Source: Candidatus Thiovulum imperiosus
GTDB lineage: Bacteria > Campylobacterota > Campylobacteria > Campylobacterales > Thiovulaceae
NCBI GenBank assembly: GCA_024281175.1
Contig: JAMJTW010000014.1
Coordinates: 1 to 64,000, forward strand
Direction: 5' to 3'
DNA length: 64,000 bases
This document shows positions 503 through 64,000 of this stretch, piece by piece. Below the pieces are notes generated by a model that searched no databases, had not been told where the DNA came from, and saw only the letters and a program-made list of their open reading frames with translations. Numbering within the stretch: position 1 is the first letter of the stretch; every line of letters starts with the position of its first letter. The position numbers and the translations under genes are program-made.

Positions 503-1371
503 TTAAAAAAAATTACAAATATCTTTAACCGCTAGTTCTTTGGCTTTAGCTTCAATATCGATGTGAACATTTTTGTATTTCTTTATCCATTTTGGAAAAT
601 CATCTTTATCTATGTAATCACTATGAGGTCTTGACTTGTAAGAAGTTGAGTAGCCATATCTTGGAGATGATAGGTGAACTCTTTGATAAGTGAAATCTTT
701 CCAAGTTTTTTGGACTTCTAAAAATAGTTGCTCTTCATCAATCTCTTTTCCAATTTGAAAACATCTTTCATGGTGAATATCATAAGTTACACGAATTTGC
801 AACTCTTGTGCAACTTCCAAAACATCTTTTATAGAGTAATTTAGTTCATCATTTTCAATAGTGATATAATTGAGTTCTTCTCTACTAAAATATCTTCTCA
901 TATTTTCAACAAATCTCTTTTTAGTTTTCTCTTTACTATCATATTTCCCGCCAATATGAATATTAATTTCTCGAATTCCTAAATATCTTGAGAGTATAAA
1001 ATGCTCTTTTAAAGTTTCCACTGAATTTTTATAACTTCCTCTTTTGGACTTCCCATATTTACAAATTGGTCAGGGTGAAAAGAGAGAAGTAAATTATGAG
1101 AATTTAGATTTTGGAGTTTTTCCAAAAAAGGTTGCAGAAATTCTAAATTTAAATCTCCTCTTTTCAATAAAGTTCCAAACTTTGGAAGAATATCTGAAGA
1201 GACTCGATAAGAAGCAATATTGTTTTTGTTACAGTAGTTAAAAGCCTTTTGAAGTTGCTCAATATTATGAGAATAGACCTCATCAGCTTTTTGAAGAGAG
1301 AAGTTTTTTAGGGTAAAAGTTTTAAACTTTATATCCTCCTCTTTAAAGAGGCAACAAAGACCTAAATTCAT
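503..1371 (-). pseudogene. uvsE: UV damage endonuclease UvsE/UvdE, frameshifted
   Basis: Two overlapping frames together make one UvsE-family protein of about 290 aa, a TIM-barrel metal-dependent endonuclease that nicks DNA next to UV photoproducts. The N-terminal piece (1009-1371) ends with the family motif HPDQFVNMGSP. The C-terminal piece (503-1021) carries INIHIGG, a TIEND-type strand and YDIHHERC, which in the family hold metal-ligand residues. The break is in a run of five T on the plus strand (1026-1030). One extra base there would restore the reading KNSVETLKEHF across the junction. It is either a recent frameshift mutation or a sequencing error; there is no other damage. The first ATG at 1371 gives the usual N-terminus. 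The gene is convergent with the rRNA operon. Confidence 0.8.
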
Positions 1372-1391
1372 ATGGAAGTTCCTTTTAAAGT

Positions 1392-1465
1392 TTATTTAAG
1401 ATATTCTACACTTTTTAAACTCGAGAAAATATGAAGCTGTTTTATTGCTGATTGACAAAGAGCTT
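1392..1465 (-). pseudogene. stray 3' end of a KilA-N gene
   Basis: About 74 bases that nearly duplicate the last codons of the KilA-N gene at 1616-2434. Translated on the minus strand they read QSAIKQLHIFSSLKSVEYLK then stop, against QSAVKQLQIFSSLKSVEYLK in the intact gene. The rest of the gene is missing. A MITE-like element (1474-1609) lies between this remnant and the intact gene. This is either a deleted tandem copy or the scar of a recombination. Confidence 0.8.
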
Positions 1466-1473
1466 TTTTATTA

Positions 1474-1609
1474 GGGACTGGCTAAATAGAGCAGGATTTC
1501 CTCTCTGAGCGAATGCGAAGAGTCTATTTTAAATTAGAGACTCTTCGGTCAGTTCTGGAAGAACCTCCCTCAGAGTGTTTTACCTTGAAAAAGTTATTTG
1601 GTCAGTCCC
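1474..1609. mobile_element. MITE-like element A (family 2, 136 bp)
   Basis: Terminal inverted repeats GGGACTGGCTAAATAG (left) and GTTATTTGGTCAGTCCC (right). The interior matches elements at 26773-26890 and 32590-32689 in reverse orientation, with the shared words AGGATTTCCTCT and CACTCTGAGGGAGG (on the minus strand). It carries an additional internal hairpin GAAGAGTCT...AGACTCTTC (1518-1546) that is the same stem used by several terminators here. There is no clear target duplication and no coding capacity. Confidence 0.8.
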
Positions 1610-1615
1610 AAATTT

Positions 1616-2500: not shown

Positions 2501-5449
2501 CTAGCTTTCCAACTCTCTTAAAAGTTCCAAAGTCTCAAGGCTTACAGTCGTTACTTTTTTCAAAAGTGAGAGAACCTCATCGAAATCTATTTCGCTTTTT
2601 CCAAACTTTTCCCGAACTGTTTCGTCTCGAATTTTCTTCTCTTTGTATCCATCGATAACCCACTCAATTGCTGAACGATTTCCCAATTTATACTCAAGTG
2701 CCTCTTTTGGAAAGAAGTTTATAAAACTCTTTTTACTCAAATCTTTTCGAGAAACTTTTCCGAAATCGATAGAAAATTCTTTCGCTTTCTCAAAATCTGT
2801 ATGGAGTTCCAGAAGAGACTTTCCAACTTTTGAAAAGAGAGAAAAGTTTTCGTAAAATGGAATTCGAGGCAAATCCTGTTTTAGATTTGTCTCATATTTC
2901 TCTCTATACTCTGGAAAGTGGAGAACCGCGTAAATGTAGTGGAAAATTTGGAGTTTTATAACTTTTCCATACCGAACAGAAAACTTTTCTAAAGCAAAAT
3001 CTGTGATGTTTTCTACTTTGGAATTTTCGGTGAAAGTGTGGAGGGGGAAAGATTTAGTTTTTTCTAGCAAATCTAAATTTGGAAGAAGAGAAACCCCAAG
3101 AGCTTGAAAAGGTTTTGAGTGGGAAGTTCCACTTACAGAAATCACAACATTTTCACTTTCTGAAGTTGGGAAAGCATCAAACTGTTGGGCAGGTAAGTCT
3201 ATAAAAATATAATTCGAATTCAAATATTGTTTTACAAATGGTCTGTAAAGAGAGTGTCTAATTTTATCTTTTGAAAAAATAGCTTTTTTATTCTTTAAAA
3301 ACTTATCTCTTTTAATCATTTTAGTCCATTTAATTAGATTTTTTAAATGTAAAAAATCATTTAATCTTTTATCTGTTTCTTTAAACTTCTCATTTTCCAA
3401 TTTATTATCAATGATAAACTTTCGCCATCTTTCTAGTTCCAAATTATATTTTTCAATAAAATACTCTGCTTTCCTTTTCAAATTTTCCTTATCAAAATCA
3501 TAAACCCATTCGTCTCTATTTGTAGAAATCCCATTTGAAAAGTTCCTAAAAATTGCATTTTCCTCTTTTCCAAGTTTTGTCTCTTTTGTTCCCATTGGAA
3601 GAAGTTCTTCCCAATCGTTATCGGTTTGATTAAGCCAATTTCCTTTCTCATCTGGAAAAATATCTTCCCAATCCAAATCGAAAAACCGTTTTCCGTTTCG
3701 TTGTAGCCAAAGAAGTTTATTCTCTTTTCCAATTTCTGGATTTTTTAAATAGTGAAGTTTCGTCGGGCTTTCAGTTTCTCTTTTTACAAAAAAGGCGATA
3801 GCAACACCAACCATAATATCAAATACATTTCCATCTTTTTCACTTTTCCGAACATTTCCCCCCAAGTCAAGTATCCAGATTTCAGAAAATTCAGAAAAGA
3901 TAGTTTTCCGAAAGCCATCAAAAGTTTTGGAGTCGATAAAACTTGAGTTTGTTACAAAAGCTACAACTCCGCTTTTTCCAATTCTATCCGTAGCCCATCG
4001 GTAAAATCGAGAATACATATCATAGACTTTCGTCTTTTGAGCCGATGAGGTTTGGACATAAGTCTCCTTAATTCTCGAGTCCACTTTTGGATAAGCCAGA
4101 TTTTTATTATTATCATTCTCATTTTGCTGATTTGCATTGTATGGAGGATTTCCGATGATTACCGTAAAATCGCTATCCTCCTGCCGATTTACTCTCTCTG
4201 TATTCTCTTCAGAAAAGAGAAATTCCCCTTGTCCTTTCTGATTTTGAGAGAGTTCCAAAGTATCCACAAAACTTATATTTTCAAAGTCTCGAAATTCGCC
4301 TGTTCGCTGAAAATAGATATACTCAAAATTGATATTTGCAATGTAGTAAGGCAGAATTGCTATCTCATTTGCGAAAAGCTCACTACCATATTTCCGAACC
4401 AAATCCCGTTTCGGTATCCAGTTCATAATTTGAGTCAAGAAAGTTCCCGTTCCAGTTGCAGGGTCGAGAATTTGAACACCTTTTGAACTCAAGGACTTCT
4501 TGAAACTCTTTCTCAAAATTCCATCTGTCGCCTCAATCATAAAATCTACAATTTCAAAAGGGGTATAGACGATACCGAGTTTGTCGGCTCTTTTTGGATT
4601 GTAGGCTTTATAGAAACTTTCGTAAAGTGCATTTAGAAATTGGTGTTTCTCTCGATACCCTTTCAGATAGACGGAGTGCGTTTTTATCGCATCATAGAAG
4701 TTCCGAATTTTATGAAAAAGAGCTTTCTTCTCATTTCGTGAAAAAACTGCTATTTCGAGTTCGTTCAAAATCTTTGCGATGTTGTTCTCTTTGTGGAAAT
4801 CCGTAGAAAAGAGGTTTACAAAAATCTCTTCTGTAAGAATGTGTTGGATAAGCATCTCCAAAATCTCAGATTTCGAGATATTCCTATCGATACTCTCCTG
4901 ACAAATCGCCTCAAGCCTACGGTATGCTTTCTGAAATTTCGGTTTCTCTTCACTACTTGAAATTCGCCTCCGAACCTCATCAACAAGTTTTGGAACAGCT
5001 TCTGAAAATTTCTCTAAATTCTCTTCAAACTTTCTCTTTTCTGGATTCTCAAATTTGAAAAAAGTCTCTAAAAGCTCCTCTAACTTTTCAGCTTTCTCCA
5101 TTTCGATTTCCAAAACAGATTCTCCATTTTGAAAAAGAATCGCAAACTTTGAATTCTCAAAAATAATATTTGAAACTGGATACCCCTTTTCCAACTTCTT
5201 TGAAATTTCAGAATCCAAATTATCTTTTAAATCTTTCGCTTCCCAAAAACCGATATCAAACTCAAATTTATCTTTCACAACTCCATCTGGTCGAATATCT
5301 CCAAAAGAGACTTCTGGAACTAGTGAAAGATTTCTCTCTCTCGCAAAACTTGAAAGGAGGTTTTCAAAAGGTCTTCGGGTGCTACTCTCATTTTTTGAAA
5401 AGCTCTGTAACTCTTCTAACTCTCTATAATAATTTTCAATCTCTACCAT
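2501..5449 (-). CDS. type IIG restriction-modification enzyme (nuclease-methyltransferase fusion)
   Basis: 982 aa, a usual size for a single-chain type IIG enzyme. The N-terminus has a PD-(D/E)xK nuclease core: P54-D55 and, after a hydrophobic strand, E70-A-K72. A helical linker follows. The gamma-class N6-adenine methyltransferase has SAM motif I DPATGTGTF at about 329-337 and catalytic NPPY at 434-437. The last 350 residues are the expected target-recognition region. No helicase motifs are present, so it is not an LlaGI-like type ISP enzyme. It would methylate adenine on its site and cut nearby when the site is unmodified. There is no strong ribosome binding site before the ATG. The downstream neighbour on the same strand is a KilA-N protein. 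The target sequence cannot be read from the protein. Confidence 0.88.
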   Translation of the reverse strand: MVEIENYYRELEELQSFSKNESSTRRPFENLLSSFARERNLSLVPEVSFGDIRPDGVVKDKFEFDIGFWEAKDLKDNLDSEISKKLEKGYPVSNIIFENSKFAILFQNGESVLEIEMEKAEKLEELLETFFKFENPEKRKFEENLEKFSEAVPKLVDEVRRRISSSEEKPKFQKAYRRLEAICQESIDRNISKSEILEMLIQHILTEEIFVNLFSTDFHKENNIAKILNELEIAVFSRNEKKALFHKIRNFYDAIKTHSVYLKGYREKHQFLNALYESFYKAYNPKRADKLGIVYTPFEIVDFMIEATDGILRKSFKKSLSSKGVQILDPATGTGTFLTQIMNWIPKRDLVRKYGSELFANEIAILPYYIANINFEYIYFQRTGEFRDFENISFVDTLELSQNQKGQGEFLFSEENTERVNRQEDSDFTVIIGNPPYNANQQNENDNNKNLAYPKVDSRIKETYVQTSSAQKTKVYDMYSRFYRWATDRIGKSGVVAFVTNSSFIDSKTFDGFRKTIFSEFSEIWILDLGGNVRKSEKDGNVFDIMVGVAIAFFVKRETESPTKLHYLKNPEIGKENKLLWLQRNGKRFFDLDWEDIFPDEKGNWLNQTDNDWEELLPMGTKETKLGKEENAIFRNFSNGISTNRDEWVYDFDKENLKRKAEYFIEKYNLELERWRKFIIDNKLENEKFKETDKRLNDFLHLKNLIKWTKMIKRDKFLKNKKAIFSKDKIRHSLYRPFVKQYLNSNYIFIDLPAQQFDAFPTSESENVVISVSGTSHSKPFQALGVSLLPNLDLLEKTKSFPLHTFTENSKVENITDFALEKFSVRYGKVIKLQIFHYIYAVLHFPEYREKYETNLKQDLPRIPFYENFSLFSKVGKSLLELHTDFEKAKEFSIDFGKVSRKDLSKKSFINFFPKEALEYKLGNRSAIEWVIDGYKEKKIRDETVREKFGKSEIDFDEVLSLLKKVTTVSLETLELLRELES

Positions 5450-5576: not shown

Positions 5577-6905
5577 TTGATAACTCTCAAAGAGGCGATG
5601 AAACTTCCAAAAGAAGAATTAGTAGAATTTAAAAAAGATTTAAAAAAGAAGATAGAAGAGAGAAAAGATTTAAATGCTTATATAGGTTTGGAAAGTAGTG
5701 GAGATGGAGTTCCAATTCTAATTAAAGATAATATTCAAGTTAAAGATTGGAGTATTACATCTGGTAGTGAGATACTTCAAGGATATCTCTCTCCATACGA
5801 TGCTACTGTAATTTCAAAGTTACGAGAAAGTGGACTCTCTCCATTTGGTAGGGCAAATATGGACGAATTCGCAATGGGAAGTTCTACTGAAACATCTTTT
5901 TATGGAAAAACTTTAAATCCTCATGATGCTAGTAGAGTTCCAGGAGGAAGTTCTGGAGGTTCTGCTTCAGCTGTTGGGGGTGGAGTTGCAATCGCCTCTC
6001 TTGGTAGTGATACTGGAGGAAGTATTCGACAACCAGCCTCTTTTTCTGGAGTTGTAGGACTGAAACCAACTTATGGTAGAGTTAGCAGATATGGATTGAA
6101 TGCTTATGGTAGCTCTCTTGACCAGATAGGACCTATTACACAAACGGTAGAGGACTCAGTAATTCTATACAATGCAATTTCAGGATATGATGTAAAAGAC
6201 TCAACAAGTGCAAATATGGAGTATGCTCCTATCTCTCCAAATCCAGATAGAAAATTGAAAATTGCAACTCTTCCTAAGTATCTGAAAGATGCTTCTAGCG
6301 AAATTGTAAAGGCGTATGAAGAGACAGTAGCCACTTTGCAAAAAATGGGACATACAGTAATAGAAGCGGAGATGGGAGATTTAAACCACTCTATTTCAGC
6401 TTACTACATTACAGCGATGGCGGAAGCGAGTTCCAATCTAGCAAGATATGATGGAATTCGGTATGGGAGAAGAGCAGAAAGAAGTTCACTTTTGGAAACT
6501 TACATAGCTTCTCGTTCAGAAGGTTTTGGTGATGAGGTGAAGCGAAGAATTCTAATTGGAAACTTTGTTCTCTCAAGTGGATATTATGATGCTTACTATG
6601 TAAAAGCTCAAAAGGTTCGATATCTTGTTAAACAGCAATTTGACTCTATTTTCCAAAATGCTGACCTTATTCTCTCTCCAGTTTCACCAACACTACCTTG
6701 GAAGTTTGGAGAACTTTCAGACCCTCTTCAGATGTATTTGAGTGATGTTTATACTGTTCCTGTAAATTTAGCTGGACTTCCTGCAATTTCACTACCAGTT
6801 TCAAAAAGTGGAACTCTGCCTATCGGCTTACAACTTATTGGAAAAGCGTTTGATGAACAGACTCTTTTTGATGGTGCTATGGGACTTGAGAGAGAGCTTT
6901 CATGA
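5577..6905 (+). CDS. gatA: aspartyl/glutamyl-tRNA amidotransferase subunit A
   Basis: 442 aa, an amidase-signature protein. GatA releases ammonia from glutamine, and the GatCAB complex uses it to convert misacylated Glu-tRNA(Gln) or Asp-tRNA(Asn). The Ser-Ser-Lys triad is in place: K50 (LIKDN), S125 in PGGSSGGSA and S149 in [10 protein letters not shown], with the same spacings as in characterised GatA. The start is TTG, chosen because MITLKEA is the family N-terminus and AAAAAGGA lies at the right distance. The stop overlaps the next start by four bases (ATGA), so it is cotranscribed with the DUF507 gene. gatB and gatC are not in the window. Confidence 0.96.
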
Positions 6906-7456
6906 GAATTGGGGTCTCCCACAGCAGATATATCGCAAGTCGAATTGCTCTCGACCTAAATAAAAAAGATTTTGTAAAATTTAGTCGAGGTGTTGATGCT
7001 GTTATTAGTGAAATTGAAATTGATGTTAGAGACAATTTAAATAGAGAACGAAGTCTTGAAGAGAGAGTAAAAGAGCTTCTCTCTGATTATGAAGATGATA
7101 TGGAATTTGAATTTGTTGATGAGAAAGAGCTTTTCAAAATGGTTAAAAAGAAACTTGCAAAAGAGTATGGAGTTATTCTCTCTTATGAAGAGCGATTTTC
7201 AGATTTAGCTCACATAATTCTTCAAGACCTCCTTTTTGAGAACCTCATCAGCTTTGAAGTAAATGAAGTACGAATTAAAACTATCATTTTTGACTCAATC
7301 ACAAACTATATTGAAGAGCGGTTTGAAGTTGAAGATGTAGTTATTGAGAAAATCGATAACATGAAAAGAAAACTTATTCTTGGAACAGATGAGTATCAGA
7401 TAGTTTACAATAAACTCTATGAAGATGAACTACGAAAAAGAGGTGCTATGAGATGA
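6902..7456 (+). CDS. DUF507 family protein
   Basis: 184 aa, full-length DUF507, a conserved family of unknown function common in Campylobacterota and Aquificae and made of two similar helical halves. The N-terminus [19 protein letters not shown] and the acidic helical middle are typical. It overlaps gatA by four bases and the following phosphodiesterase by four bases, so all three are translated from one message. No catalytic motif is visible, no signal peptide and no membrane segment; it is cytoplasmic. Confidence 0.88.
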
Positions 7457-8155: not shown

Positions 8156-8977
8156 CTAGCAGTGGGGTATGGAAGTTTCTCCAGAAGCTATCTCAATTTC
8201 CTCTGTTGTAAAACCAGCTTTTTTTCTAGCTTCCCTATTTAGTTTGCCATTCTGAAATGCTTTTGGATAGATTTCTTTAACAATATGAAAGTAGCAATTT
8301 GTATCTATTTCACTCTCTCTACAAGCAAAGTGAAACCACTTATCTCCTTTTCGAACATGTTCAACTTCCTCTTTAAGTATTATCTCTAAAGCTGAAACAA
8401 ACTTTCTTGTAAAAGGGGTATTCAAACTGTTCAACTTTTCAATTATTAGAGGATTTGAGTCTAAACCTGACGCTTCAAGATATCGAGGAACAACACTCAT
8501 TCTTGAAACAAGACTACTTTCACTATTTTTAGATGCGAGAAAAAGAGAGTCATGAACTGGAAAATCTCCATATTTGTAGCCCAACTCTTTCAATAGAGAA
8601 ATTAACATTAGAAAATGGCGAACCTCATCATCAGCAACTTCCAACCAATCATCGTAATACTCTTTTGGTAAATCTCTAAATCGATAAGCGTGGTCAAGAG
8701 CCAAATCTATTGCTGAATACTCTATATGAATAATTGCATGAAGTAGAGAAGCCTGTCCCTCAACTCTGTTCAACTTCTTTCTACTATTCACTTTAGATGG
8801 AAGCAATATTTCTAAAAACTCTTTGTAAGATGGAGTTTCAAAACTTTGTACTTCTCCATTGTGATTTTCTTCCAACTCTCCATTTTTATACTTCTCATAA
8901 AAATCTTGAAAATCTACACACTTCTTTTCTGGATTTGATATCTTCAACAACTTTTCCAAACTTGAAAATAGTTCCAA
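8156..8977 (-). CDS. DUF455 ferritin-like protein
   Basis: 273 aa. Belongs to the DUF455 group of ferritin-like four-helix proteins, related to MiaE-type diiron enzymes. Candidate metal ligands are E and H residues on the helices: ASLLHAIIHIEYSAIDLAL, the DDEVRHF segment and LKEEVEHVRKGD. These ExxH patterns suggest a diiron centre. Substrate unknown. It starts just after the giant lipoprotein gene ends (9-base gap), on the same strand, so it may be cotranscribed with it. There is no signal peptide. Confidence 0.85.
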   Translation of the reverse strand: MELFSSLEKLLKISNPEKKCVDFQDFYEKYKNGELEENHNGEVQSFETPSYKEFLEILLPSKVNSRKKLNRVEGQASLLHAIIHIEYSAIDLALDHAYRFRDLPKEYYDDWLEVADDEVRHFLMLISLLKELGYKYGDFPVHDSLFLASKNSESSLVSRMSVVPRYLEASGLDSNPLIIEKLNSLNTPFTRKFVSALEIILKEEVEHVRKGDKWFHFACRESEIDTNCYFHIVKEIYPKAFQNGKLNREARKKAGFTTEEIEIASGETSIPHC

Positions 8978-8986
8978 TTCCTCTCC

Positions 8987-11900
8987 TTAAAAATATATTC
9001 TTGCATTACTTAAATTCTCTTCTAGTAGAGTCTGATTTGTTTCAGAAACAGAGTTGTTTTGGAGATAGATAAATCTTAAATTCTCCATTCCTAAAAGAGG
9101 TGATATATCTGAAATATTGTTGCTATCAAGATATAGAGTCTCTAAGTTTGTGAGATTTCCAATTTCAGAAATATCTGAAATGGAATTTGAAGAGAGTTTA
9201 AGAGTCTCCAAACTATCAAGATTTGAGAGTTCTAAAGTTACAATTTCATTGTATCGAGCATCTAAACTACTTAAACTTGGTAAGTTGTCAAGAGTTAAAG
9301 TTGTAATTTCGTTTCTTCGAACATTTATAGTTTCAAGATACTCTAAATCTGAGAGAGGAGAAATATCGATAATATCATTTCTATCAAGACCTACAAATTG
9401 TAAATTCTCAAAACCAGAAAGATTAGAGATATCCACTATATCGTTGTAGTTCAAATTCAAAGTCTCCAATTTTAAAAGATTTGAGAAATCTAAAGAGTCT
9501 ATTTGATTGTAATCTAAATTTAGTTCCGTAAGATTTAAATCTGAAAGAGAAGAGACATCTTCGATATTGTTGTAATCAGCGTCTAAAAATGTAAGTTTTG
9601 TTAAATTTGAGAAAGATGATATATCTTCAATACTGTTTTGAGCTATCTCCAGAGTTTGTAGGTTTGTGAGTTCTCCAATTCTACTAACATCGGTAATATC
9701 GAAGTTCTGCTGTAAATCTAACTCTGTAAGATTTGTGAGTATCTCAATTCCAGCAACTCTATCTATCTCCCAATTTCGACAATCTAACTCTGTAATTGTA
9801 TAGTTGTCACCAACACACTCTTCTAAATTGACATCTTCAAACTGTTCATCTTCCTTATAAACTGTATCTCGAATACAGATGCTATATTGGTAGTCATCAT
9901 CTGGACTGCTATTTGTATATCCACCATTTGCTAAGTCGAGACTCCACATACTTGTTGGTGTAAAGTTTGTTGAGTCACTCCAATAGATAGTTGCTATCAC
10001 ATTTTCAAAAACAGAATTTATAAAGCCATCTAAATTTTCAACATCAAAAATAGAGACAAGTTCCTCAATTTCTGGTAGTCTCCAATCATCAAGCCCAGAA
10101 ACATTTTTGTCATCACAAACTGTTTCGGCATCACTCCAAGAAGTTCCTTCACTATACTCATCAAACCACATTAATTCGTGAACCTCATCAACGACAACAC
10201 CTGAACTATTTCTATCTAAATCCAAACTGTTGTAAAGAGTTTCACCAGAGATACAGCGAATATAGTTTTCTGTATCTCTATCTGAAAATTCAATTGCTCC
10301 ATCATAAAAAGAGACTGCATAATATTTATCTTCAAAGCCATTTGCAACTATCTCTTTATCTGTCCAGTAATTTTCAGTTTTAACATACTCAAAAACATCA
10401 GAGATGGCTGGAGATATTTTGTCTCTCTCTGCTAAATACCAAAGCTCTTTAAAGTTTGGAAGTCTCCAACTCTTTCCATACAAATCCAACTCTTCACAAT
10501 AGGCTCTCGCTTCTGAAAGAGTTCCACTCCTATCTCCACTATCTTCCCACAAAATATTTAGAGTCTCATTTTGAACAACTTCTCCCAAATCTGTATAGAC
10601 CATATCTTGGAGAAAATTCCGATAGTCATCACTCGGTTTATTTTCACTATCCTGAACAAAAGAGATATTCAAATCCAAAAAGTCCTCTTTTAAAGTATCA
10701 TTTTTCTCATCAGAGTAATTCTCTACAAAATCCAAATCTGTAAGAGTTTCTAACTCTTCTGCACTCTCAAAATCTTTTGAGTAGATATCTAAAATTTCTG
10801 AATAGTTTTCATCAAAATTTTCAAAATTTGTTGATAAGTCTAAATCTGTTGTCTTTTCTAAATCGTATCTCTTTTCAAAAGTTGTATAGAAAAATAGTTC
10901 TGTTTCATTTTCTAACTCCTCTCTCAATTTGAAATCAGTGGCAAAATCGAAATCTAAAATCTTCTCTAACTCTCCATAAATTTTAAAATCCATATTGAAA
11001 ACTAAATTGTAGAGATGGATATTTTCAGATTTAGTTTTAAAATCAGTGGCAAAATCGAAGTCTAAAATCTTCTCCAACTCACTGTAAGTTTCAAAATCTT
11101 CTAAAAAGATAAGCTCTTTAAATTTCTCCACATCTGAAATTTTCTCAAAATCTATTGCAAAAATCAGAGTCTCCAATTTCTCCAATTCGGAAACTTTTAA
11201 AAAGTCTGCAAAGAGATGTAGAGATTTGAGCTTCTCTGCATCAGATACTTTTTGGAAATCTATGGAAAAGAGAAGAAGTTTCAACTTATCTAAATCTGAA
11301 ACAGCTTCAAAATCAGAACTTAAAACAAGTTCCGAAAGTTTTTCAAGTTCTGACACATTTTCAAAATTTATCATAAATTGGAGTATCTTATACTTCTCCA
11401 AATCTGAAACAGTTTCGAAGTCTGCAAGTGTAGAGAGAGTCCCATATTTAGAAAAACTAGAGATATCTGGAAAGTCTTCTGAAAAGATGATATTTTTCAA
11501 ATTTATAACATCATAAACTTTCTCAAAATCGATATTAAAAAGTATAAATTTTAGATTTTCCAAATCTGAAATAGCTTTAAAATCTTCAGTAAATTGGAAA
11601 TCGAGAAGTTTTGCCAAATCGGAAACTCCTTTCTGAAAATCCTCTTCTAAAAATAGCTCTTTTAAACTTTCCATCTCTTTTACAATTTCAAAATTCAGAG
11701 AGCTGATGAGGTTCAGCAGGTTTTCCACATCTTCCACTATTTCAAAATCCATACCCATTGGAACTTGATTTAAAACAGTTTCAAAATTTTCTGAAAAGAG
11801 TAAAGAGTAAAATTTTCCTAAATCTGATGATGGGTTCTGAAAATCTGTTTCAAAAAGTAGATTTTTAAAATTGGAAATTTCAGAAACAGTTTCAAAATTC

Positions 11901-53970: not shown

Positions 53971-54966
53971 ATGAAAAAAGTTGGGGTTGTAGGAGCGAGT
54001 GGTTATACAGGATTAGAACTAATTAAAATCTTGATTTCTCACCCATATTTTGAACTTGTATATTTGGCAACCAGTGGAGGTGGAGAAGAGTTAGAAGAGT
54101 TACATACTTCTCTTCAAAATATTTACAATTTCCCTATTTCAAAAGCAAATTCAAAAGAGATTGGAGAGAAGTGTGATTTAGTCTTTTTAGCTGTTCCTCA
54201 TAAAACTGCTATGGAGTATGTAAAAGAACTTATGGAGTTTCCAAATTTGAGAATTGTAGATTTTTCTGCTGACTATCGCCTCAAATTGGAAACTTATGAA
54301 AAGTTTTATACAAAACATATAAATCCTGAAAATTTAGAAAAAGCTATTTATGGTATTCCAGAACTATTTAGAAAAGAGATAAGCAGTGCAAGACTTGTAG
54401 CAAATCCAGGTTGTTATCCAACCTCATCAATATTAGGAATTCTTCCATTTTTAAAATATGTTAAATCTGGAACTCCAATTTTTATAGATGCTAAAAGTGG
54501 AGTTAGTGGAGCAGGAAAAAAACTTTCTGATACAACAAGTTTTGTTACAGTAAATGAGAATATCTTCTCTTACAATCCTCTTTCTCATCGACACGCTCCA
54601 GAGATTTCTGAAAAAACAGGTTTAGAAAATATCTATTTTGTACCTCATTTAATTCCTGTAACAAGAGGAATGTTAAGTTCTATCTATTTCGAAATTTCTG
54701 AAGAGTTAGAACCATTTGAAATTTTAAAAGAGTTTTATAAAGATGAAATATTTGTAAGAATTAGAAAAAATCCGCCTCAAATTAAAGATGTTGCTGGAAC
54801 AAACTTTACTGATATATTTGCAAAAAGAGATGGAAAAATCTTATACATCTCAAGTGCCATAGACAATCTGCTTCGAGGTGCAAGTTCTCAAGCTGTTGTA
54901 AATGCAAATATTATGTTTGGCTTTCCAGAAGAGAGTGGAATTCCAAAAATTCCTACTACTCCATGA
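53971..54966 (+). CDS. argC: N-acetyl-gamma-glutamyl-phosphate reductase
   Basis: 331 aa. NADPH fold GASGYTG at 8-14 and catalytic C148 in NPGCYPTS; HRHAPEI later. Reduces N-acetylglutamyl phosphate to the semialdehyde in arginine synthesis. ATG with AAAAGGT upstream. Its stop overlaps the next gene by four bases. Confidence 0.95.
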   Translation: MKKVGVVGASGYTGLELIKILISHPYFELVYLATSGGGEELEELHTSLQNIYNFPISKANSKEIGEKCDLVFLAVPHKTAMEYVKELMEFPNLRIVDFSADYRLKLETYEKFYTKHINPENLEKAIYGIPELFRKEISSARLVANPGCYPTSSILGILPFLKYVKSGTPIFIDAKSGVSGAGKKLSDTTSFVTVNENIFSYNPLSHRHAPEISEKTGLENIYFVPHLIPVTRGMLSSIYFEISEELEPFEILKEFYKDEIFVRIRKNPPQIKDVAGTNFTDIFAKRDGKILYISSAIDNLLRGASSQAVVNANIMFGFPEESGIPKIPTTP

Positions 54967-55688
54967 TTGAATTACAAGAGGAGGCAATTCTTGTTTCTGA
55001 TATTCACTACTCATCTTTTAGAAAAGAACACTTTGAAACTCTTTTAGATAAATTGGAAAAGAAACCTCCACCTCAGCTAATTCTCTTAGGAGATATCTTC
55101 GACTTGCTTTTTGGAGGAATTAAATATACTGAAAAAGAGAATTTTGAAGTGATTCAAAAATTAGAAAATTTAGGAAAAAAGTTTGAGATTCTCTATTTTG
55201 AAGGGAATCACGACTTCAATTTAAAATCTGTTTTTAAAAATATTATTGTAATTCCAATTTCAAAACAGCCTTTTTTGATGAGGTTTGGAGAAAAAAGAGT
55301 TCTAATAGCTCACGGTGATTATAGAACAAAAGGATTTTTTGGTTTATACAGACGATTTATTGAAAGAGAATCTGTTCTAAAATTTCTCAATTTTTTAGAT
55401 TCAAATTTTTTACAAAATAGAATTATTCGAGGAATAGAGAGAAAACAGAGACCAAAAAGAAAATGTTATAAAATCAAAGGATTTAAAGATATAATTGAGA
55501 GGGAAATTTTTCGGATAGACAAAATTGATTATTTCATAGAGGGACATTTTCATCAAGGAGTTCAATTTTCTATCGGTGAAATGGAGTATTTTAATCTCCA
55601 CTCTTTTGCCTGTAATCAAAATTGTTTTATAGTAAAATCGAAACAGAAGAGTCTGTTATATAAAAATATAAATCTTGAGGATTTGTGA
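54963..55688 (+). CDS. LpxH-like UDP-2,3-diacylglucosamine diphosphatase
   Basis: 241 aa calcineurin-like phosphoesterase. Metal motifs SDIHYS, GDIFDLLF, GNHDFN, AHGD and GHFH are all present, as in LpxH, which removes UMP from UDP-2,3-diacylglucosamine in lipid A synthesis. The length fits LpxH. An LpxG/LpxI function cannot be excluded. It overlaps argC and cheV, linking lipid A, arginine and chemotaxis genes on one message. Confidence 0.8.
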   Translation: MIELQEEAILVSDIHYSSFRKEHFETLLDKLEKKPPPQLILLGDIFDLLFGGIKYTEKENFEVIQKLENLGKKFEILYFEGNHDFNLKSVFKNIIVIPISKQPFLMRFGEKRVLIAHGDYRTKGFFGLYRRFIERESVLKFLNFLDSNFLQNRIIRGIERKQRPKRKCYKIKGFKDIIEREIFRIDKIDYFIEGHFHQGVQFSIGEMEYFNLHSFACNQNCFIVKSKQKSLLYKNINLEDL

Positions 55689-56655: not shown

Positions 56656-59055
56656 ATGGACGAATTTGAAGAGATTTTACAAGATTTTTTAGTTGAGGCA
56701 TTTGAGTTAATTGAACAATTAGATTTAGATTTAGTTGAACTTGAAAATAACCCTGATGACTTAGACTTATTAAATCGTATCTTTAGAGTTGCTCACACAA
56801 TTAAAGGTTCTAGCTCTTTCTTAAATTTTGATGTTCTTACAGAATTGACTCATCATATGGAAGATGTTCTTAACAAAGCTAGAAAAGGTGAGCTTCAAGT
56901 TACACCTGAAGTTATGGATGTTGTTTTACCATCTATTGATATGATGAAAGGACTTCTTGAGCAGATAAGAAATACAGGAAGTGACCAAGATGGTATAGAG
57001 ATAGAGGGTATAGTTGCACAGCTTAAAGCAGTTTTAAGTGGTGAAGATGTGCATGTTGCAGAAATAGAAGATAGTGAAATAGAAGATACTCTTGAAGAAA
57101 CAGAGAGCGGATATGAAAATCCTCTTGATGATGAAGGCGAAATCGATATTTCAAGTATGAGTGAAGATGCTGTTGAAGCTGAAATAGAGAGACTCCTCAA
57201 GAAAAAACAAGAAGCAGATAAGGCTAGAAGAGAAGCTAAAATTGCTGCTGGAGAAAGTGTTCCTGAATTCCAAGCTCCTGTTTTAGAGGAAGAGAAGCCT
57301 AAAGAGGAAGAGAAGCCTAAAGAGGAAGAAAAGCCTAAAGAGGAAGTTAAACCTAAAGTTCCTGTAAAAGCTGAAGTTCAGAAAAAACCAGTCACAACAG
57401 CATCTGCACCTGCAACTACAAGTAGCCAAAAATCTGTAGAACAAACAATACGAGTTGATGTAAATAGACTTGACCACCTTATGAACCTCATCGGAGAGTT
57501 AGTTCTTGGTAAAAACAGACTAATGAAAATCAATGATGATGTTGAAGAGAGATATGAAGGTGAGGAGTTCTTAGAAGAGTTAAACCAAGTTGTTTCCATG
57601 ATTTCTCTTGTAACAACTGACCTTCAAATTGCTGTTATGAAAACAAGAATGCTACCAATTGGAAAAGTATTCAATAAGTTCCCAAGAATGATAAGAGACC
57701 TTTCAAGAGAACTTCAAAAGAAAATAGACTTACAGATAGAGGGTGAAGAGACCGAATTAGACAAGTCGATAGTTGAAGAGATTGGAGACCCATTGGTTCA
57801 CATCATTAGAAATTCTTGTGACCATGGTATTGAGTCTCCTGCTGATAGGGTTGCAAAAGGAAAACCTGAGATGGGAGTTGTAAGTCTTAAAGCATACAAT
57901 GAGGGGAACCATATTGTCGTTCAAATTACAGATGATGGTAAAGGTCTCAATCCAAATATGCTTAAAGTTAAGTCTATTGAAAAGGGTGTTATTACTGAAA
58001 AAGAAGCTAACACTATGACAGATAAAGAGGCTTATGGACTTATCTTTAGACCTGGTTTTTCAACAGCAGCAAAAGTTACAAATGTCTCTGGTCGAGGTGT
58101 TGGAATGGATGTTGTTAAGACAAATATTGAGAAATTGAACGGAATTATTGATATTGACTCTGAAGTTGGTGAATATACAAGTATGAAACTTAAAATTCCT
58201 CTAACTCTTGCTATTATTCAAGCACTTCTTGTTGGAGTTCAAGAGGAGTATTATGCTATTCCACTCGCATCTGTTCTTGAGACTGTAAGAATTACTGCTG
58301 ATGAAATCTATACAGTTGAAAATAGACAAGTTTTAAGATTACGAGATGAGGTTCTCTCTTTAGTTCACCTTGCTGATGTTTTTGATGTAGAGAAAGTGTT
58401 CGACAATAGTGACCATACTTATGTTGTTGTTCTCGGTCTTGCAGAAGCAAAAATTGGTGTTATTGTAGACTCTCTTGTTGGACAAGAAGAGATAGTTATT
58501 AAAAATCTTGGTGAATATCTTAAAGGAATGGAAGGAATAGCTGGAGCTACAATTCGTGGTGATGGTGGAGTTACGCTAATTGTTGATGTTGCGGCTGTTA
58601 TGCATGTAGCAAAAGAGATTAAATCTCATGCAGTTTCAACTGAAGCCATTACAAGCAAAAAAGTTAGAAACGGTCCAGAAGACTATACAGTAATGTTAGT
58701 TGATGATAGTAAAACTGATCGAAAGATTATGAAGACAGCCATTGAACCTCTTGGAATTCAGATAGTTGAAGCTACAGATGGTGTTGATGCTCTCACAAAA
58801 CTGAAAAATAGTGAAGAAGAGATAGATGTTATGCTTGTAGATATAGAGATGCCTAGAATGGACGGATATACTCTTGCGAGTGAAATTCGAAAGTACAATA
58901 GATATAAGGGAATGCCTCTGATAGCTGTTACGTCTCGAAATAGTAAAAGTGACAGAATGAGAGGGGTTGAAGCTGGAATGAGTGAGTATATTACAAAACC
59001 TTACTCTGTTGAATATCTTGCAAATGTTGTTAAAAGAAACTTAGGATTGGAGTAG
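56656..59055 (+). CDS. cheA: chemotaxis histidine kinase CheA with C-terminal receiver
   Basis: 799 aa. P1 Hpt domain with H47 (VAHTIKGSSSF), a short P2-like linker with repeated EEEKPK units (57285-57350), P3 dimer helices (VDRLDH-like VNRLDHLMNLIGELV), P4 ATPase (N box NSCDHGIE, DDGKGL, GRGVGMDVV), P5 CheW-like regulatory domain and a receiver (about 675-799; LVDDSKTDR, VDIEMPRMDGY). The fused receiver is usual in Campylobacterota. It phosphorylates CheY and CheV. 14 bases after cheV. Confidence 0.95.
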   Translation: MDEFEEILQDFLVEAFELIEQLDLDLVELENNPDDLDLLNRIFRVAHTIKGSSSFLNFDVLTELTHHMEDVLNKARKGELQVTPEVMDVVLPSIDMMKGLLEQIRNTGSDQDGIEIEGIVAQLKAVLSGEDVHVAEIEDSEIEDTLEETESGYENPLDDEGEIDISSMSEDAVEAEIERLLKKKQEADKARREAKIAAGESVPEFQAPVLEEEKPKEEEKPKEEEKPKEEVKPKVPVKAEVQKKPVTTASAPATTSSQKSVEQTIRVDVNRLDHLMNLIGELVLGKNRLMKINDDVEERYEGEEFLEELNQVVSMISLVTTDLQIAVMKTRMLPIGKVFNKFPRMIRDLSRELQKKIDLQIEGEETELDKSIVEEIGDPLVHIIRNSCDHGIESPADRVAKGKPEMGVVSLKAYNEGNHIVVQITDDGKGLNPNMLKVKSIEKGVITEKEANTMTDKEAYGLIFRPGFSTAAKVTNVSGRGVGMDVVKTNIEKLNGIIDIDSEVGEYTSMKLKIPLTLAIIQALLVGVQEEYYAIPLASVLETVRITADEIYTVENRQVLRLRDEVLSLVHLADVFDVEKVFDNSDHTYVVVLGLAEAKIGVIVDSLVGQEEIVIKNLGEYLKGMEGIAGATIRGDGGVTLIVDVAAVMHVAKEIKSHAVSTEAITSKKVRNGPEDYTVMLVDDSKTDRKIMKTAIEPLGIQIVEATDGVDALTKLKNSEEEIDVMLVDIEMPRMDGYTLASEIRKYNRYKGMPLIAVTSRNSKSDRMRGVEAGMSEYITKPYSVEYLANVVKRNLGLE

Positions 59056-59059: not shown

Positions 59060-59554
59060 ATGAGTGGAAAATTACAAGAAGTTGTTCAAAAACAGAGAGA
59101 ACAGCAAAATGTATCTCCTGTAAGTGATGATGAGGTTCTTCAACTTGTAAGTTTTGTTGTTGGTGAAGAAGAGTTCGCAATACCAATTCTTACTATTCAA
59201 GAGATAATCAAGCCTATTGAACATACGAGAGTTCCAAGAACTCCTCCTTTTGTTCTTGGTGTTTTTAACTTGAGAGGCAGTGTTATTCCTCTTATAGACC
59301 TTCGTCTTAAATTTGGTGTTACAGCAAAAGGAAAGACAGAAGATACCAGATATATAGTTCTAAAAGATGGAGTGGAAACTGCTGGGTTTGTAATTGATAG
59401 ATTAAATCAAGCTATTAGAATTAATAAACAGAAAATCGATCCAGCACCAGAAGCTACGGCTCAAGATAAAAGCCTCATTGAGGGAGTTGGAAAACAGGAC
59501 GATAGAATTATCACAATTCTTCGAGTATCAAAACTTTTAGAAAGAGATTTCTAG
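59060..59554 (+). CDS. cheW: chemotaxis coupling protein CheW
   Basis: 164 aa, one CheW domain: VVGEEEFAIPILTIQEIIKP, PFVLGVFNLRGSVIPLIDLR. Links receptors to CheA. Starts four bases after cheA ends and is followed by a good terminator, so it closes the operon. Confidence 0.95.
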   Translation: MSGKLQEVVQKQREQQNVSPVSDDEVLQLVSFVVGEEEFAIPILTIQEIIKPIEHTRVPRTPPFVLGVFNLRGSVIPLIDLRLKFGVTAKGKTEDTRYIVLKDGVETAGFVIDRLNQAIRINKQKIDPAPEATAQDKSLIEGVGKQDDRIITILRVSKLLERDF

Positions 59555-59597: not shown

Positions 59598-61106
59598 GTG
59601 AAAAAGACTCTTTCAGCAACAATTAGAGGGTTAGAGGCTGATGAGGTTTCAGTTGAAGTAAACTTCACAAGAGGACTTCCAAAAATTCATCTCGTAGGTT
59701 TGGCTTCCAATGAAGTTAAAGAGTCTGTTCATAGAGTCAAATCAGCACTTTTAAGTAGTGGCTTCCAATTCCCAAATATGGTTGTAACCATAAATTTGTC
59801 ACCATCTGAAATCAAAAAAAGTGGTTCTCACTTTGATTTACCAATTGCACTTGCCATAGCTCTTTTTCAATTTGAAGAGATAGATATTTCAGATTGGCAT
59901 ATTTTTGGAGAAGTTGGTTTAGATGGCTCTTTAAAAGATAGTTCATCTATATTTCCTGCAATTCTCTCTTTAAAAAATGAAGGGAAAATTTCAAAAGTTT
60001 TAATTCCAGAAGAGAGTTTAGAAAAAGTTTCAAAAATACCAGAAATAGAGATATATAGAGTCTCTTCAATATCTGAAGCAATGGATTTCTTTAGAGGTAT
60101 TTTAAATATTGACAAAATTTCTGGAAAAGAGCTGGAAAGTGAAAAATTAGAAATTGAAAATTTAGCTTATCTATTTGATAGAGACTTTGAAACTGATTTT
60201 GAACAAGTTCTAGGACAGACTGTTGCAAAAAATGCTTCTCTAATTGCTGTTGCTGGCATGCACAACATCATTTTTGAAGGTTCTCCTGGAAGTGGAAAAA
60301 GTATGATTGCCAAAAGACTTCAACACATTTTACCTCCAATTGCAGAAAGTGAATTGTTAGAAATAGCAAAACTTCAAGCTCTAAATGGAGAGACTCCAAA
60401 CTTCTCTCCAAAAAGACCATTTCGAGCACCTCATCACACAGCAAGTAGAGGTAGTATTTTTGGGGGAGGAACAAGAAGTGCCAAAATTGGAGAAGTCTCA
60501 ATGGCAAATTCTGGAATTCTATTTTTTGATGAACTTCCCCACTTTCCAAAACAGATATTAGAAGCTCTTCGAGAACCTCTTCAAGATTATTCTATTCTTA
60601 TTTCAAGAGTTAATTCCAAAATTCTATATCCAGCAAATTTCCTTTTTGTTGGTGCTATGAACCCATGTCCATGCGGATATCTAATCTCTAAAACAAAAAG
60701 TTGTCGCTGTTCAGACTTGGAAATTAAGAGATACCAAAATATATTATCAGAACCATTTTGGGATAGAATAGATTTATATGTTGCAATGAGTGAAGTTTCA
60801 GCTCAAGATACTCCAACTATCTCTTCTAATAAAATGTTTTCAAGTGTCTTAAATGCGTTTGAAAAACAGATGAAACGGGGACAAAAATTTCTAAATGGAA
60901 GACTTGAAGAGAGAGAATTAGAAGAGTTTATAAAACTTGACGATAAGACAAATATGACTTTAATTCAAGCCTCTGAAAAATTTAATTTAAGTTTACGAGG
61001 CATTTCTAAAATCAAAAAAGTTGCAAGAACTATTGCTGATTTACAAGGAGTTGAAGAGATAGGTAGAAGCCATATTTTAGAAGCTCTATCTTATCGAAAA
61101 AGATAA
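59598..61106 (+). CDS. comM: ComM/YifB-type AAA+ ATPase (Mg chelatase-like)
   Basis: 502 aa. N-terminal ChlI domain (VEVNFTRGLPKIHLVGLA; PSEIKKSGSHFDLPIALA), P-loop EGSPGSGKSMIAKR, Walker B GILFFDELP, zinc-like CPCGY...CRC, and Mg-chelatase C-terminal helices. ComM homologues are hexameric branch-migration helicases that help integrate incoming DNA during natural transformation. GTG start at 59598 with AAAAGGT upstream. Its presence fits with the candidate uptake motif in this window. Confidence 0.93.
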   Translation: MKKTLSATIRGLEADEVSVEVNFTRGLPKIHLVGLASNEVKESVHRVKSALLSSGFQFPNMVVTINLSPSEIKKSGSHFDLPIALAIALFQFEEIDISDWHIFGEVGLDGSLKDSSSIFPAILSLKNEGKISKVLIPEESLEKVSKIPEIEIYRVSSISEAMDFFRGILNIDKISGKELESEKLEIENLAYLFDRDFETDFEQVLGQTVAKNASLIAVAGMHNIIFEGSPGSGKSMIAKRLQHILPPIAESELLEIAKLQALNGETPNFSPKRPFRAPHHTASRGSIFGGGTRSAKIGEVSMANSGILFFDELPHFPKQILEALREPLQDYSILISRVNSKILYPANFLFVGAMNPCPCGYLISKTKSCRCSDLEIKRYQNILSEPFWDRIDLYVAMSEVSAQDTPTISSNKMFSSVLNAFEKQMKRGQKFLNGRLEERELEEFIKLDDKTNMTLIQASEKFNLSLRGISKIKKVARTIADLQGVEEIGRSHILEALSYRKR

Positions 61107-61121: not shown

Positions 61122-62003
61122 ATGAAATTCTCAATTTTAATGAACTGTTATAACTGTGAAAAATATTTAGTTGAAGCAATGAACTCAATTTACTCGCAAA
61201 CATTTGAAGATTGGGAAATTATTTTTATAGATAACTCATCAATAGACAATAGTAAAGAAATTGCCTTAAATTATGATAGTCGAGTTAAATATCATCAAAC
61301 TCCTTACTTTATGTCTCTTGGAGAAGCTCGGAATTTTGGTTTACAGTTTTGCAAAGGAGAGTATTTAGCTTTTTTAGATACTGATGATGTTTGGTATTCA
61401 TTTAAATTAAAAGAGCAGATAGAGATTTTAGACTCAGATAAAAGTCTTGCAATGTGTTACTCCTCTGTAATGTTTATTGATGAGAATTCAAAAGAGTTGG
61501 CAAAACTTGTTGCAGTTGCAAAGAGTGGAGATGTTTTTAAACAACAACTTTTAAGGTATGAGATAAATATGCAATCTGTTGCAATTAGAAACAATATTCC
61601 AATCTCTTTCAATCCAAAAATGGAGTTTTCTCCAGATTTTGACCTTTTTATGAAGATAGTTTCAAAATATCAAGTAGCTGTTGTTTCAGAACCTCTTGTA
61701 AAGTACAGATTAGTTTCTAGCTCTTTAACAAATAAGAAGATTGCGAGATGGTGGATTGAGATGAAAATGACTTTAGATGCTATCTTTGAAGAAAATCCTG
61801 AATTTTTAAAAAAATATAGTGATGAGGTGAAAATAGCTTATGCAAAAGTCTCTTACTATAAAGCTAGATATTTGATGAAAATAGGAGAAAATAGAAAAGC
61901 GAAAGAGGAACTTAAAAAAAACAGAAGTTTGAATTTAAGCTATTTTGCTCTATATATTCTCTCACTATTTCCTCCCATCTGGAATAGAATATTTAAATCT
62001 TAG
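61122..62003 (+). CDS. family 2 glycosyltransferase
   Basis: 293 aa, GT-A fold: MNCYNCEKYLVEAMNSIYSQ, IFIDNSSIDNS, FLDTDDVWY (the DxD metal site). Acceptor and sugar are unknown; enzymes of this kind build LPS, capsule or glycoprotein glycans. It follows comM by 15 bases, probably same transcript. Confidence 0.9.
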   Translation: MKFSILMNCYNCEKYLVEAMNSIYSQTFEDWEIIFIDNSSIDNSKEIALNYDSRVKYHQTPYFMSLGEARNFGLQFCKGEYLAFLDTDDVWYSFKLKEQIEILDSDKSLAMCYSSVMFIDENSKELAKLVAVAKSGDVFKQQLLRYEINMQSVAIRNNIPISFNPKMEFSPDFDLFMKIVSKYQVAVVSEPLVKYRLVSSSLTNKKIARWWIEMKMTLDAIFEENPEFLKKYSDEVKIAYAKVSYYKARYLMKIGENRKAKEELKKNRSLNLSYFALYILSLFPPIWNRIFKS

Positions 62004-62081
62004 ATAAAATATTTACAAAATCAATTTTTTCACAAAATTTTAAGAAAGGATGCAATAACTAATATTATTGCCAAATAACTT

Positions 62082-62894
62082 ATGAAGTATGACACCCTTT
62101 TTCCTATGAACAATATTAAAAAAGTTGATAGAGCTAATGCAGAACAGAGTAGTAGAGCTGGTCTTATAAAGTTTGGCTCAAAACTACCAATAACTATGGA
62201 TATTCTTCAGAGAATTGACCCTTCAACTTATCTTCTTCAGATGAATGGAAAAAAGAGTTTTGCAGAAAGTGAAAGAAACTTAGACCCAGGCATGAAATAT
62301 TGGGGTGAAGTTACTCATAAGCGGGGTGAAAAGTTAGTTGTTAAAAATCTAATTAAACAGCCATCATTCTTTAATCAAATTAGAGATTATGCCTATTTAG
62401 ACGCAAAAAAAGTTTTACAATCCTTTTCTCAAAATTTTGGCTCATCATTTCAGAGTAAGTTCAAGAGTGAAATAATATCAAACATGGCAAATAGTAACAG
62501 TAGAGAGGAGTTTCTATTTTTAAATCAACTACTATTGTCAATGGAGCAGAATGTTATCTCTATTCCTGTCACATATCAAGATAGAAGTGGAATGTTTCAG
62601 TATAAATATGGGAAGAAAGAGAAGCGACAAAATGGGAAAGAGGAAGTTAGAAATTTAGACTTTTATGCTGCTTTTGAGACTTTAGGAGCTATGAAAGGTA
62701 AAGTTGTCTATTTTAACAAAGAAGCTAGTCTGAATTTGGAAGTAAACTTTGAAAAGACTAGAGATTTTCTTTATAGAAACATAGGTGTTAGCGATGTAGT
62801 TAAAGAGATGGATGTATCAATAAAAATTATTAAAGATGAGATACAACCTCTATACTCTTTCACTCAAAATAATATTTTAGATATTAAGACGTAA
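62082..62894 (+). CDS. hypothetical protein with FliK-like C-terminus
   Basis: 270 aa, cytoplasmic, no signal or membrane segment. The C-terminal part (about 185-250: FYAAFETLGAMKGKVVYFNK, LEVNFEKTRDFLYRNI) is reminiscent of the flagellar hook-length control protein FliK C-terminal domain, but the match is weak and my assignment tentative. No other flagellar genes nearby. No strong Shine-Dalgarno before ATG. Confidence 0.6.
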   Translation: MKYDTLFPMNNIKKVDRANAEQSSRAGLIKFGSKLPITMDILQRIDPSTYLLQMNGKKSFAESERNLDPGMKYWGEVTHKRGEKLVVKNLIKQPSFFNQIRDYAYLDAKKVLQSFSQNFGSSFQSKFKSEIISNMANSNSREEFLFLNQLLLSMEQNVISIPVTYQDRSGMFQYKYGKKEKRQNGKEEVRNLDFYAAFETLGAMKGKVVYFNKEASLNLEVNFEKTRDFLYRNIGVSDVVKEMDVSIKIIKDEIQPLYSFTQNNILDIKT

Positions 62895-62954
62895 TTTTTA
62901 CAAAATATCGGAAAATTTTAGTAATATTTCAAAAATAGAGCAAGGATATAATAT

Positions 62955-64000
62955 ATGATAGGTTGGATGCAACATAATAAAAAGTATTTAGTAGTTACTT
63001 TATGGATAAGTGCTTTTGCATTTATAGGTGCAGGATTTGTAGGTTGGGGAAGTTATAGTTATGGAAGTAAAGCTACATCTATTGCAAAAGTCGGAGATGT
63101 AGAAATTAAACTGTCTGAGTTACAGCAAACTTATAGTAATCTTTATGGCTACTACTCTCAAATGTTTGGTGGTCAATTTGATGAAGAACAGGCTAGAAAT
63201 ATGGGGCTTCAAGAAACAGCATTCAACATGTTAAAAAGAGAAGCATTACTATTAAATGTAGCTAAAGATTTTGGACTAATAGTATTAGATAAAGAAATAG
63301 CAGAACATATATTAAATACAAAAGATTTTCAACAAGATGGAAATTTCAGTAGAGAACAGTATGAATTTGTTCTTAAAAATAGTGGAATGACTCCTAAAGA
63401 GTATGAAGGTAGAATTTCAAAAGTTATACTAATTACAAAACTTCAAAAACTGTTAAAAATTGATGTCACTCCTTTGGAAAAAGAGATATTCAACTCTTTG
63501 ACAAAATTAGAAGACAAGTTAGAGTATAAAGTTCTAAGTTTTTATGATGTTGAAGTTTCTGTAACTGATGATGAGGTGATTTCTGCTTGGGAACTTACAA
63601 AAGAGAAATATAAAACTGATGAGAAATATAAGATTTCCTATATAGAGACTCCTTTAATTGAAAAAGATATTAACGATAGTGAAATTGAAGAGTATTACAA
63701 CACTCACGCATTGGATTATAATGGTCTTTTTGAAGATGTTAAAGAGGAAATTAGAGAAGATATCTTAAAAGATGCAACAAAAAATAGTGCTTTAAAAGAG
63801 TATCTTGCATTTAAAAAAGGTGAATATAGTGATGAGGTTTTCTCTGATGAAATTGGAAGCATAAATTTACTTCTCTCTTTAGAAGAGATGGAAAAACTCA
63901 AAGGTTCTGAAGTAGGAAGTTATTTAAAACCAGTTTTTTCTGGAAACAGATTTGTATCTATAAAACTTGAAGAGATAGTTTCTCCACAACTTGAAAAATT
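62955..64000 (+). CDS. PpiD/SurA-like peptidyl-prolyl isomerase, 5' part
   Basis: The frame is open from ATG 62955 to the window end (348 codons, no stop). One N-terminal membrane helix (VVTLWISAFAFIGAGFVGW), then a SurA-N-type chaperone domain (about 40-170: IAKVGDVEIKLSELQQTY, EREALLL-like KREALLLNVAKDFG, ISREQYEFVLKNSGMT-like segment). PpiD is a membrane-anchored periplasmic folding factor for secreted and outer-membrane proteins. The parvulin domain is only partly within the window. AAGGA precedes the start. Confidence 0.85.
   Translation, partial: MIGWMQHNKKYLVVTLWISAFAFIGAGFVGWGSYSYGSKATSIAKVGDVEIKLSELQQTYSNLYGYYSQMFGGQFDEEQARNMGLQETAFNMLKREALLLNVAKDFGLIVLDKEIAEHILNTKDFQQDGNFSREQYEFVLKNSGMTPKEYEGRISKVILITKLQKLLKIDVTPLEKEIFNSLTKLEDKLEYKVLSFYDVEVSVTDDEVISAWELTKEKYKTDEKYKISYIETPLIEKDINDSEIEEYYNTHALDYNGLFEDVKEEIREDILKDATKNSALKEYLAFKKGEYSDEVFSDEIGSINLLLSLEEMEKLKGSEVGSYLKPVFSGNRFVSIKLEEIVSPQLEK

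Follow-up and report, generated by a model that had tools for sequence, protein, structure and literature searches.

Uptake sequences spread across whole genomes have been described mainly in the Neisseriaceae and Pasteurellaceae, whose DNA uptake sequence (DUS) and uptake signal sequence (USS), respectively, represent single short words in strong genome-wide excess, with balanced orientations and no replication-strand bias. Chi, a G-rich, over-represented short word of a different kind, known from Escherichia coli and, for AddAB, from Firmicutes, is read one-way by a helicase-nuclease; a replication skew in favor of the leading strand is usual for Chi, but not a strict requirement. DUS further vary between species as dialects (PMC3630211), and their distribution has been used for marking foreign elements (PMC7371117). 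Here, we describe an octamer, GATGAGGT, in a 64-kb stretch of Candidatus Thiovulum imperiosus DNA (contig JAMJTW010000014.1, positions 1 to 64,000; the window) and follow it across the family Thiovulaceae. It resembles USS and DUS in its excess, its balance and the lack of replication-strand bias, and Chi in its G-richness. In its strand-wise spacing, however, GATGAGGT behaves like none of USS, DUS and E. coli Chi: copies of the same orientation exclude each other, while copies on opposite strands are independent, from which we conclude that the octamer serves each strand separately, over about 1 kb.

Abundance, distribution and dialects of the octamer

The window contains 49 exact copies, 25 on the plus and 24 on the minus strand, where dinucleotide shuffling predicts 1.6 and a second-order Markov model 1.15, corresponding to a 43-fold excess and rendering GATGAGGT the top-ranked 8-mer by over-representation. 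An earlier note, made from the letters of the window, had counted 48 copies in balanced orientations (25:23), about 40-fold above roughly one expected copy; all 48 coordinates proved right, with a single minus-strand copy (18248-18255) overlooked. The excess and balance hold genome-wide, with 1,565 copies (782 forward, 783 reverse; ~40-fold, not near expectation) in the 2,199,814 bp and 36 contigs of T. imperiosus, compared to 204 copies of the reversed control word. Within 432 kb of this genome, GATGAGGT was again the top over-represented 8-mer (310 copies, 39-fold). No replichore skew was observed in T. imperiosus or the closed T. stygium genome, each 20-kb stretch being approximately balanced. 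Another family of repeated words, TGTCATTTCGA / CATTTCGAACCC, occurs in the same 432 kb with 16-41 copies and resembles a repetitive extragenic palindromic (REP)-type repeat.

The earlier note had further held that the excess is not simple codon bias. In 652 kb of T. imperiosus, 430 genic copies were observed; shuffling synonymous codons inside each gene left 95.6 +/- 8.2, and shuffling the codon order 22.8. As the synonymous shuffle retains protein sequences that are already motif-shaped, the resulting 4.5-fold excess is a lower bound. Copies were found in both coding senses (240 sense, 190 antisense), the sense copies mostly being in frame as GAT GAG GTn (Asp-Glu-Val), and their density was 0.34 per kb in intergenic versus 0.74 per kb in genic DNA. 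A comparison of conserved with non-conserved genes revealed no clear difference in density. In T. imperiosus, T. stygium and Thiovulum ES, the position within genes differs with sense, antisense copies tending towards the 5' end and sense copies towards the 3' end.

Across 399 Campylobacterales genomes from 87 genera, strong enrichment was confined to the five Thiovulaceae genomes, which carry 1,565, 1,378, 990, 733 and 1,239 copies, compared to 50 to 200 copies in the majority of the other genomes. The published Thiovulum assemblies comprise 36 scaffolds and 2.20 Mb for Ca. T. imperiosus, one closed 1.72-Mb sequence for Ca. T. stygium Movile, 206 scaffolds and 2.08 Mb for Thiovulum ES, 191 scaffolds and 1.86 Mb for Ca. 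T. karukerense, and 178 scaffolds and 1.34 Mb for Thiovulum Tui Malila (PMC9938260, Table 2). An apparent enrichment in a second group (f19 g22, up to ~500 copies) was traced to its 54% GC content, with a 4-fold excess over the Markov expectation in the genome sampled (G126). Separately, some other Campylobacterales show one-sided counts (G169, 111:11; G184, 47:1; G301, 3:82), which are probably tandem or dispersed repeats. The earlier note knew of no uptake sequence in the Campylobacterota, and likewise our search of the open-licence literature yielded no paper linking DNA uptake sequences with this phylum.

The octamer core is rigid. Single-mismatch words occur at about background frequency, the main exception being GATGATGT (4 to 5-fold), whereas the flanks are graded and species-specific, an arrangement akin to the DUS with its invariant core and dialects; like the DUS, GATGAGGT is also family-restricted. 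The extended word in T. imperiosus approximates T-G-n-Y-GATGAGGT-T, the dialect preferring T-G-n-T upstream and T downstream (TGATGAGGTT, 116-fold enriched). Thiovulum ES prefers C upstream and C-G downstream (CGATGAGGTCG, 80 copies, 4,484-fold), Tui Malila Y upstream and G at +2, and T. stygium Y upstream and T downstream. An alignment of T. imperiosus with ES over 91 kb (73% identity) contains 61 T. imperiosus copies free of gaps, of which ES retains 25 intact (41%, versus 14.6% for background 8-mers); intermediates with one mismatch are few (2). The flanks of the 25 shared copies have shifted to C in ES (T>C versus C>T, 7 to 1 at -1 and 6 to 1 at +1), opposite to the genome-wide trend between the two genomes (2,322 against 2,707). 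Though small in number, these shifts agree with the genome-wide dialect in both direction and place.

Finally, the largest deserts of GATGAGGT, three of which were annotated, hold prophage and other foreign genes. In T. imperiosus, a 10-kb desert (contig C34, L127:5612-15707) contains the remnant of a Mu-like prophage (portal, F protein) and a DDE transposase, as well as genes for a SocA-like antitoxin and a D12 adenine methyltransferase. A 12-kb desert of the same genome (contig C10, L122:6202-18509), possibly a defence island, encodes a phage Rha regulator, an OLD-like AAA_21 ATPase and a reverse transcriptase, adjoining a polysulfide-reductase-like operon (NrfD, molybdopterin), and a desert in ES coincides with a surface polysaccharide locus. 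Judged by these three deserts, the octamer is scarce in recently acquired DNA, as are DUS and USS.

Strand-wise exclusion between copies

We analyzed the spacing of copies in 652 kb of T. imperiosus, ~560 kb of ES, 400 kb of T. stygium and smaller samples of T. karukerense and Tui Malila. Neighboring copies predominantly alternate in orientation, with opposite:same counts of 296:138 in T. imperiosus, 278:136 in ES, 158:58 in T. stygium, 49:18 in Tui Malila and 18:9 in T. karukerense; within the window, the ratio is 29:19. Pooled across the five genomes, neighbors alternate 799:359, the maximum in 2,000 orientation permutations being 665. This alternation arises because same-strand copies exclude each other within ~1 kb: same-orientation pairs closer than 800 bp occur at 0.15 to 0.45 of the random frequency, the deficit having disappeared by 1.2 to 1.6 kb, whereas opposite-orientation pairs remain at about 1.1 of random at every distance. 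The exclusion was seen both within and between genes, which rules out a rule of one copy per gene and strand, and it holds among same-orientation pairs regardless of whether these are sense or antisense to the gene. None of nine other common 8-mers of Thiovulum genomes showed same-strand exclusion, most showing the reverse. Near-match variants were also considered as working copies and rejected, as single-mismatch variants are not excluded in the vicinity of perfect GATGAGGT copies.

Complementarily, we subjected the known systems to the same counts. In 73 Pasteurellaceae loci (582 kb), the USS AAGTGCGGT proved orientation-blind, with an opposite:same ratio of 183:177 among neighbors and of 153:155 among pairs spaced 60-1000 bp apart. 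Close inverted pairs are frequent for USS (67 within 60 bp) and few for GATGAGGT, which also lacks AT-rich tails. Similarly, DUS10 was counted in Neisseria-type DNA (320 kb, non-redundant), taken from IMG/VR proviral contigs that were retrieved by a DUS inverted pair and whose Neisseria origin is inferred from the DUS itself. It showed 75 opposite to 63 same neighbors and 50:46 pairs at 60-1000 bp, with no orientation effect; many DUS copies lie as inverted pairs. Unlike USS and DUS, GATGAGGT copies are thus not interchangeable across orientations. Across 550 kb of the E. coli K-12 genome, in turn, Chi (GCTGGTGG) is strongly skewed per stretch (12:0, 14:3, 2:11) and free of exclusion (23 same-strand pairs observed versus 22.1 expected), in contrast to the unskewed octamer with its same-strand exclusion and dialect flanks.

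A simple birth-death simulation of redundancy, illustrative and with unfitted parameters, yielded 67% alternation under strand-wise redundancy (69% observed) and left opposite pairs unaffected. Orientation-blind redundancy, in contrast, excluded all near pairs and resulted in 51% alternation. One-sided service depleted convergent pairs; with 281 convergent and 348 divergent pairs observed at 30-1500 bp, this depletion is at most slight, and one-sided directional uptake from the octamer was therefore rejected.

Candidate explanations for a strand-read octamer

We tentatively favor the reading that GATGAGGT is a transformation self-recognition sequence of the Thiovulaceae, accumulated by transformation-coupled drive and read per strand, because of its abundance, its rigid core with dialects, its family restriction, its scarcity in foreign DNA and the presence of competence genes. 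ComEC and DprA are encoded in all five Thiovulaceae genomes, along with two or more secretins and seven or more pilins per genome, and type IV pili genes have been reported in all Thiovulum strains (PMC9938260). The window itself carries a comM homologue, as the earlier note had recognized (Table 1), and the encoded protein is a possible downstream partner of GATGAGGT. Cells would preferentially import or use DNA bearing the octamer, with preferred flanks of approximately T-G-n-Y before it and T or C, then G, after it. Alleles lacking GATGAGGT would be replaced by fragments carrying it, and copies would accumulate by this uptake-driven molecular drive until one was present per transferred-fragment-sized stretch (~1 kb). 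Each copy would serve its own strand, for example by having the imported single strand admitted, protected or passed to recombination, and each strand would need its own copies, since reading would be one-stranded. Transformation as the driving process, the single-strand level of reading and the identity of the reader are what we infer here. Several observations weigh against this account. As USS and DUS show no strand-wise exclusion, the strand-specific step is an added assumption; ComEC and DprA also occur in Campylobacterales without motif enrichment; no strongly basic ComP-like pilin is common to the five genomes, the pilins looking ordinary; and the open-licence literature searched contained no Thiovulum transformation experiment or link to natural competence. 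A receptor gene beside comEC was considered and dismissed, as comEC neighborhoods are not conserved across the Thiovulaceae.

The main rival, which we consider unlikely yet the most serious competitor, is a Chi-like signal for AddAB, whereby the enzyme would read the octamer one-way, stop degrading and start recombination. Such direction-specific reading directly predicts strand-wise exclusion, each orientation being needed independently. AddB (PF12705) is present in all five Thiovulaceae genomes, and GATGAGGT is G-rich and purine-rich like known Chi, its density falling within the range of known Chi sequences. Nevertheless, the octamer is unskewed in every stretch, whereas E. coli Chi is strongly skewed and lacks same-strand exclusion; AddB is also found in Campylobacterales without GATGAGGT enrichment, and two species belonging to a single genus have different flank dialects. 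A horizontally acquired RecBCD reading a new Chi was rejected, RecC being absent from all five genomes. The earlier note had set the octamer apart from Chi and FtsK-orienting motifs, which the absent replichore skew bears out; the strand-wise spacing, in turn, is compatible with a direction-specific, Chi-like role. Clearly less probable is a strand-specific epigenetic or nicking mark, set by a methyltransferase or other enzyme once per 1-2 kb and strand for self-recognition or repair. It would explain the independent strands and the characteristic range, but only weak selection per site would be expected, and modification sites are not normally 40-fold enriched.

Slightly more doubtful still is an ordinary, orientation-blind uptake sequence of the USS or DUS type, read as double-stranded DNA by a pilus receptor. 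The earlier note had proposed a DNA uptake or recognition sequence by analogy to Neisseria and the Pasteurellaceae, and this proposal stood in part: a genome-wide recognition sequence is supported by the family-restricted enrichment, the core with dialects, the foreign-DNA deserts and the competence genes, and the abundance and balance fit as well. What did not fit is the exclusion of same-strand copies only, which is absent from the Pasteurellaceae and Neisseria DNA and which simulated orientation-blind redundancy fails to reproduce, as well as the depletion, rather than enrichment, of copies between genes and the shortage of close inverted pairs. Practically no weight is left for codon, dipeptide or base-composition bias, or dispersed repeats. 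The in-frame Asp-Glu-Val reading of most sense copies speaks for such a bias, but synonymous shuffling leaves only 96 of 430 copies, GATGAGGT is present on both coding strands, single-mismatch words stay near background and control 8-mers mostly cluster on the same strand; codon or dipeptide bias as the cause was ruled out by the shuffles together with the strand-wise exclusion. Our judgement is evenly divided on the broader proposition that GATGAGGT is the first of a class of strand-read genome self-marks, distinct from both classical uptake sequences and classical Chi. Such marks would be recognized by a direction-specific machine or in single-stranded form, each strand maintaining its own set with an exclusion range of ~1 kb, and would be restricted to one family.

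Features of the window and significance for Thiovulum

All copies in the window are listed in Table 1. Two giant open reading frames lie on its minus strand, one of 1,968 aa (8987-14893) with internalin-like leucine-rich repeats towards the C terminus, and one of 2,098 aa (47415-53711) for which an NCBIfam search returned no match.

Table 1. Positions of the GATGAGGT copies and of the comM homologue in the window.
Feature	Position	Strand	Evidence
Copy 1	1277..1284	-	exact match
Copy 2	2574..2581	-	exact match
Copy 3	4044..4051	+	exact match
Copy 4	4974..4981	-	exact match
Copy 5	6531..6538	+	exact match
Copy 6	7242..7249	-	exact match
Copy 7	8622..8629	-	exact match
Copy 8	10182..10189	-	exact match
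Copy 9	11705..11712	+	exact match
Copy 10	11943..11950	-	exact match
Copy 11	12866..12873	+	exact match
Copy 12	14574..14581	-	exact match
Copy 13	15448..15455	+	exact match
Copy 14	17913..17920	+	exact match
Copy 15, in one of few close same-strand pairs	18063..18070	+	exact match
Copy 16, overlooked in the earlier note	18248..18255	-	exact match
Copy 17	19589..19596	-	exact match
Copy 18	19997..20004	+	exact match
Copy 19	23003..23010	-	exact match
Copy 20	23777..23784	+	exact match
Copy 21	24692..24699	+	exact match
Copy 22	27221..27228	+	exact match
Copy 23	27283..27290	-	exact match
Copy 24	28677..28684	+	exact match
Copy 25	29553..29560	-	exact match
Copy 26	30539..30546	+	exact match
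Copy 27	31275..31282	-	exact match
Copy 28	31900..31907	+	exact match
Copy 29	36100..36107	+	exact match
Copy 30	37061..37068	-	exact match
Copy 31	38677..38684	+	exact match
Copy 32	40997..41004	+	exact match
Copy 33	41538..41545	-	exact match
Copy 34	42041..42048	-	exact match
Copy 35	43813..43820	-	exact match
Copy 36	46322..46329	+	exact match
Copy 37	47001..47008	-	exact match
Copy 38	49318..49325	-	exact match
Copy 39	51919..51926	-	exact match
Copy 40	54421..54428	-	exact match
Copy 41	55277..55284	+	exact match
Copy 42	57485..57492	-	exact match
Copy 43	58345..58352	+	exact match
Copy 44	59129..59136	+	exact match
Copy 45, within comM	59640..59647	+	exact match
Copy 46, within comM	60428..60435	-	exact match
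Copy 47	61821..61828	+	exact match
Copy 48	63570..63577	+	exact match
Copy 49	63831..63838	+	exact match
comM/yifB homologue (transformation branch-migration helicase family)	59598..61106	+	TIGR00368, 452 bits, above cut-off

With the strand-wise exclusion as a criterion, any genome with an abundant word can be tested computationally for whether that word behaves as an orientation-blind uptake signal or as one read on a single strand. Tagging of the DNA per strand suggests an 'own DNA' label of an undescribed kind, which is probably used during DNA uptake. If true, a third, distant phylum would possess such a system, and self-recognition in bacterial sex would have arisen there independently. 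For Thiovulum, a giant sulfur bacterium that swims fast, forms veils and bears many surface pili, a self-mark on its DNA would, if true, suggest one use for these pili.

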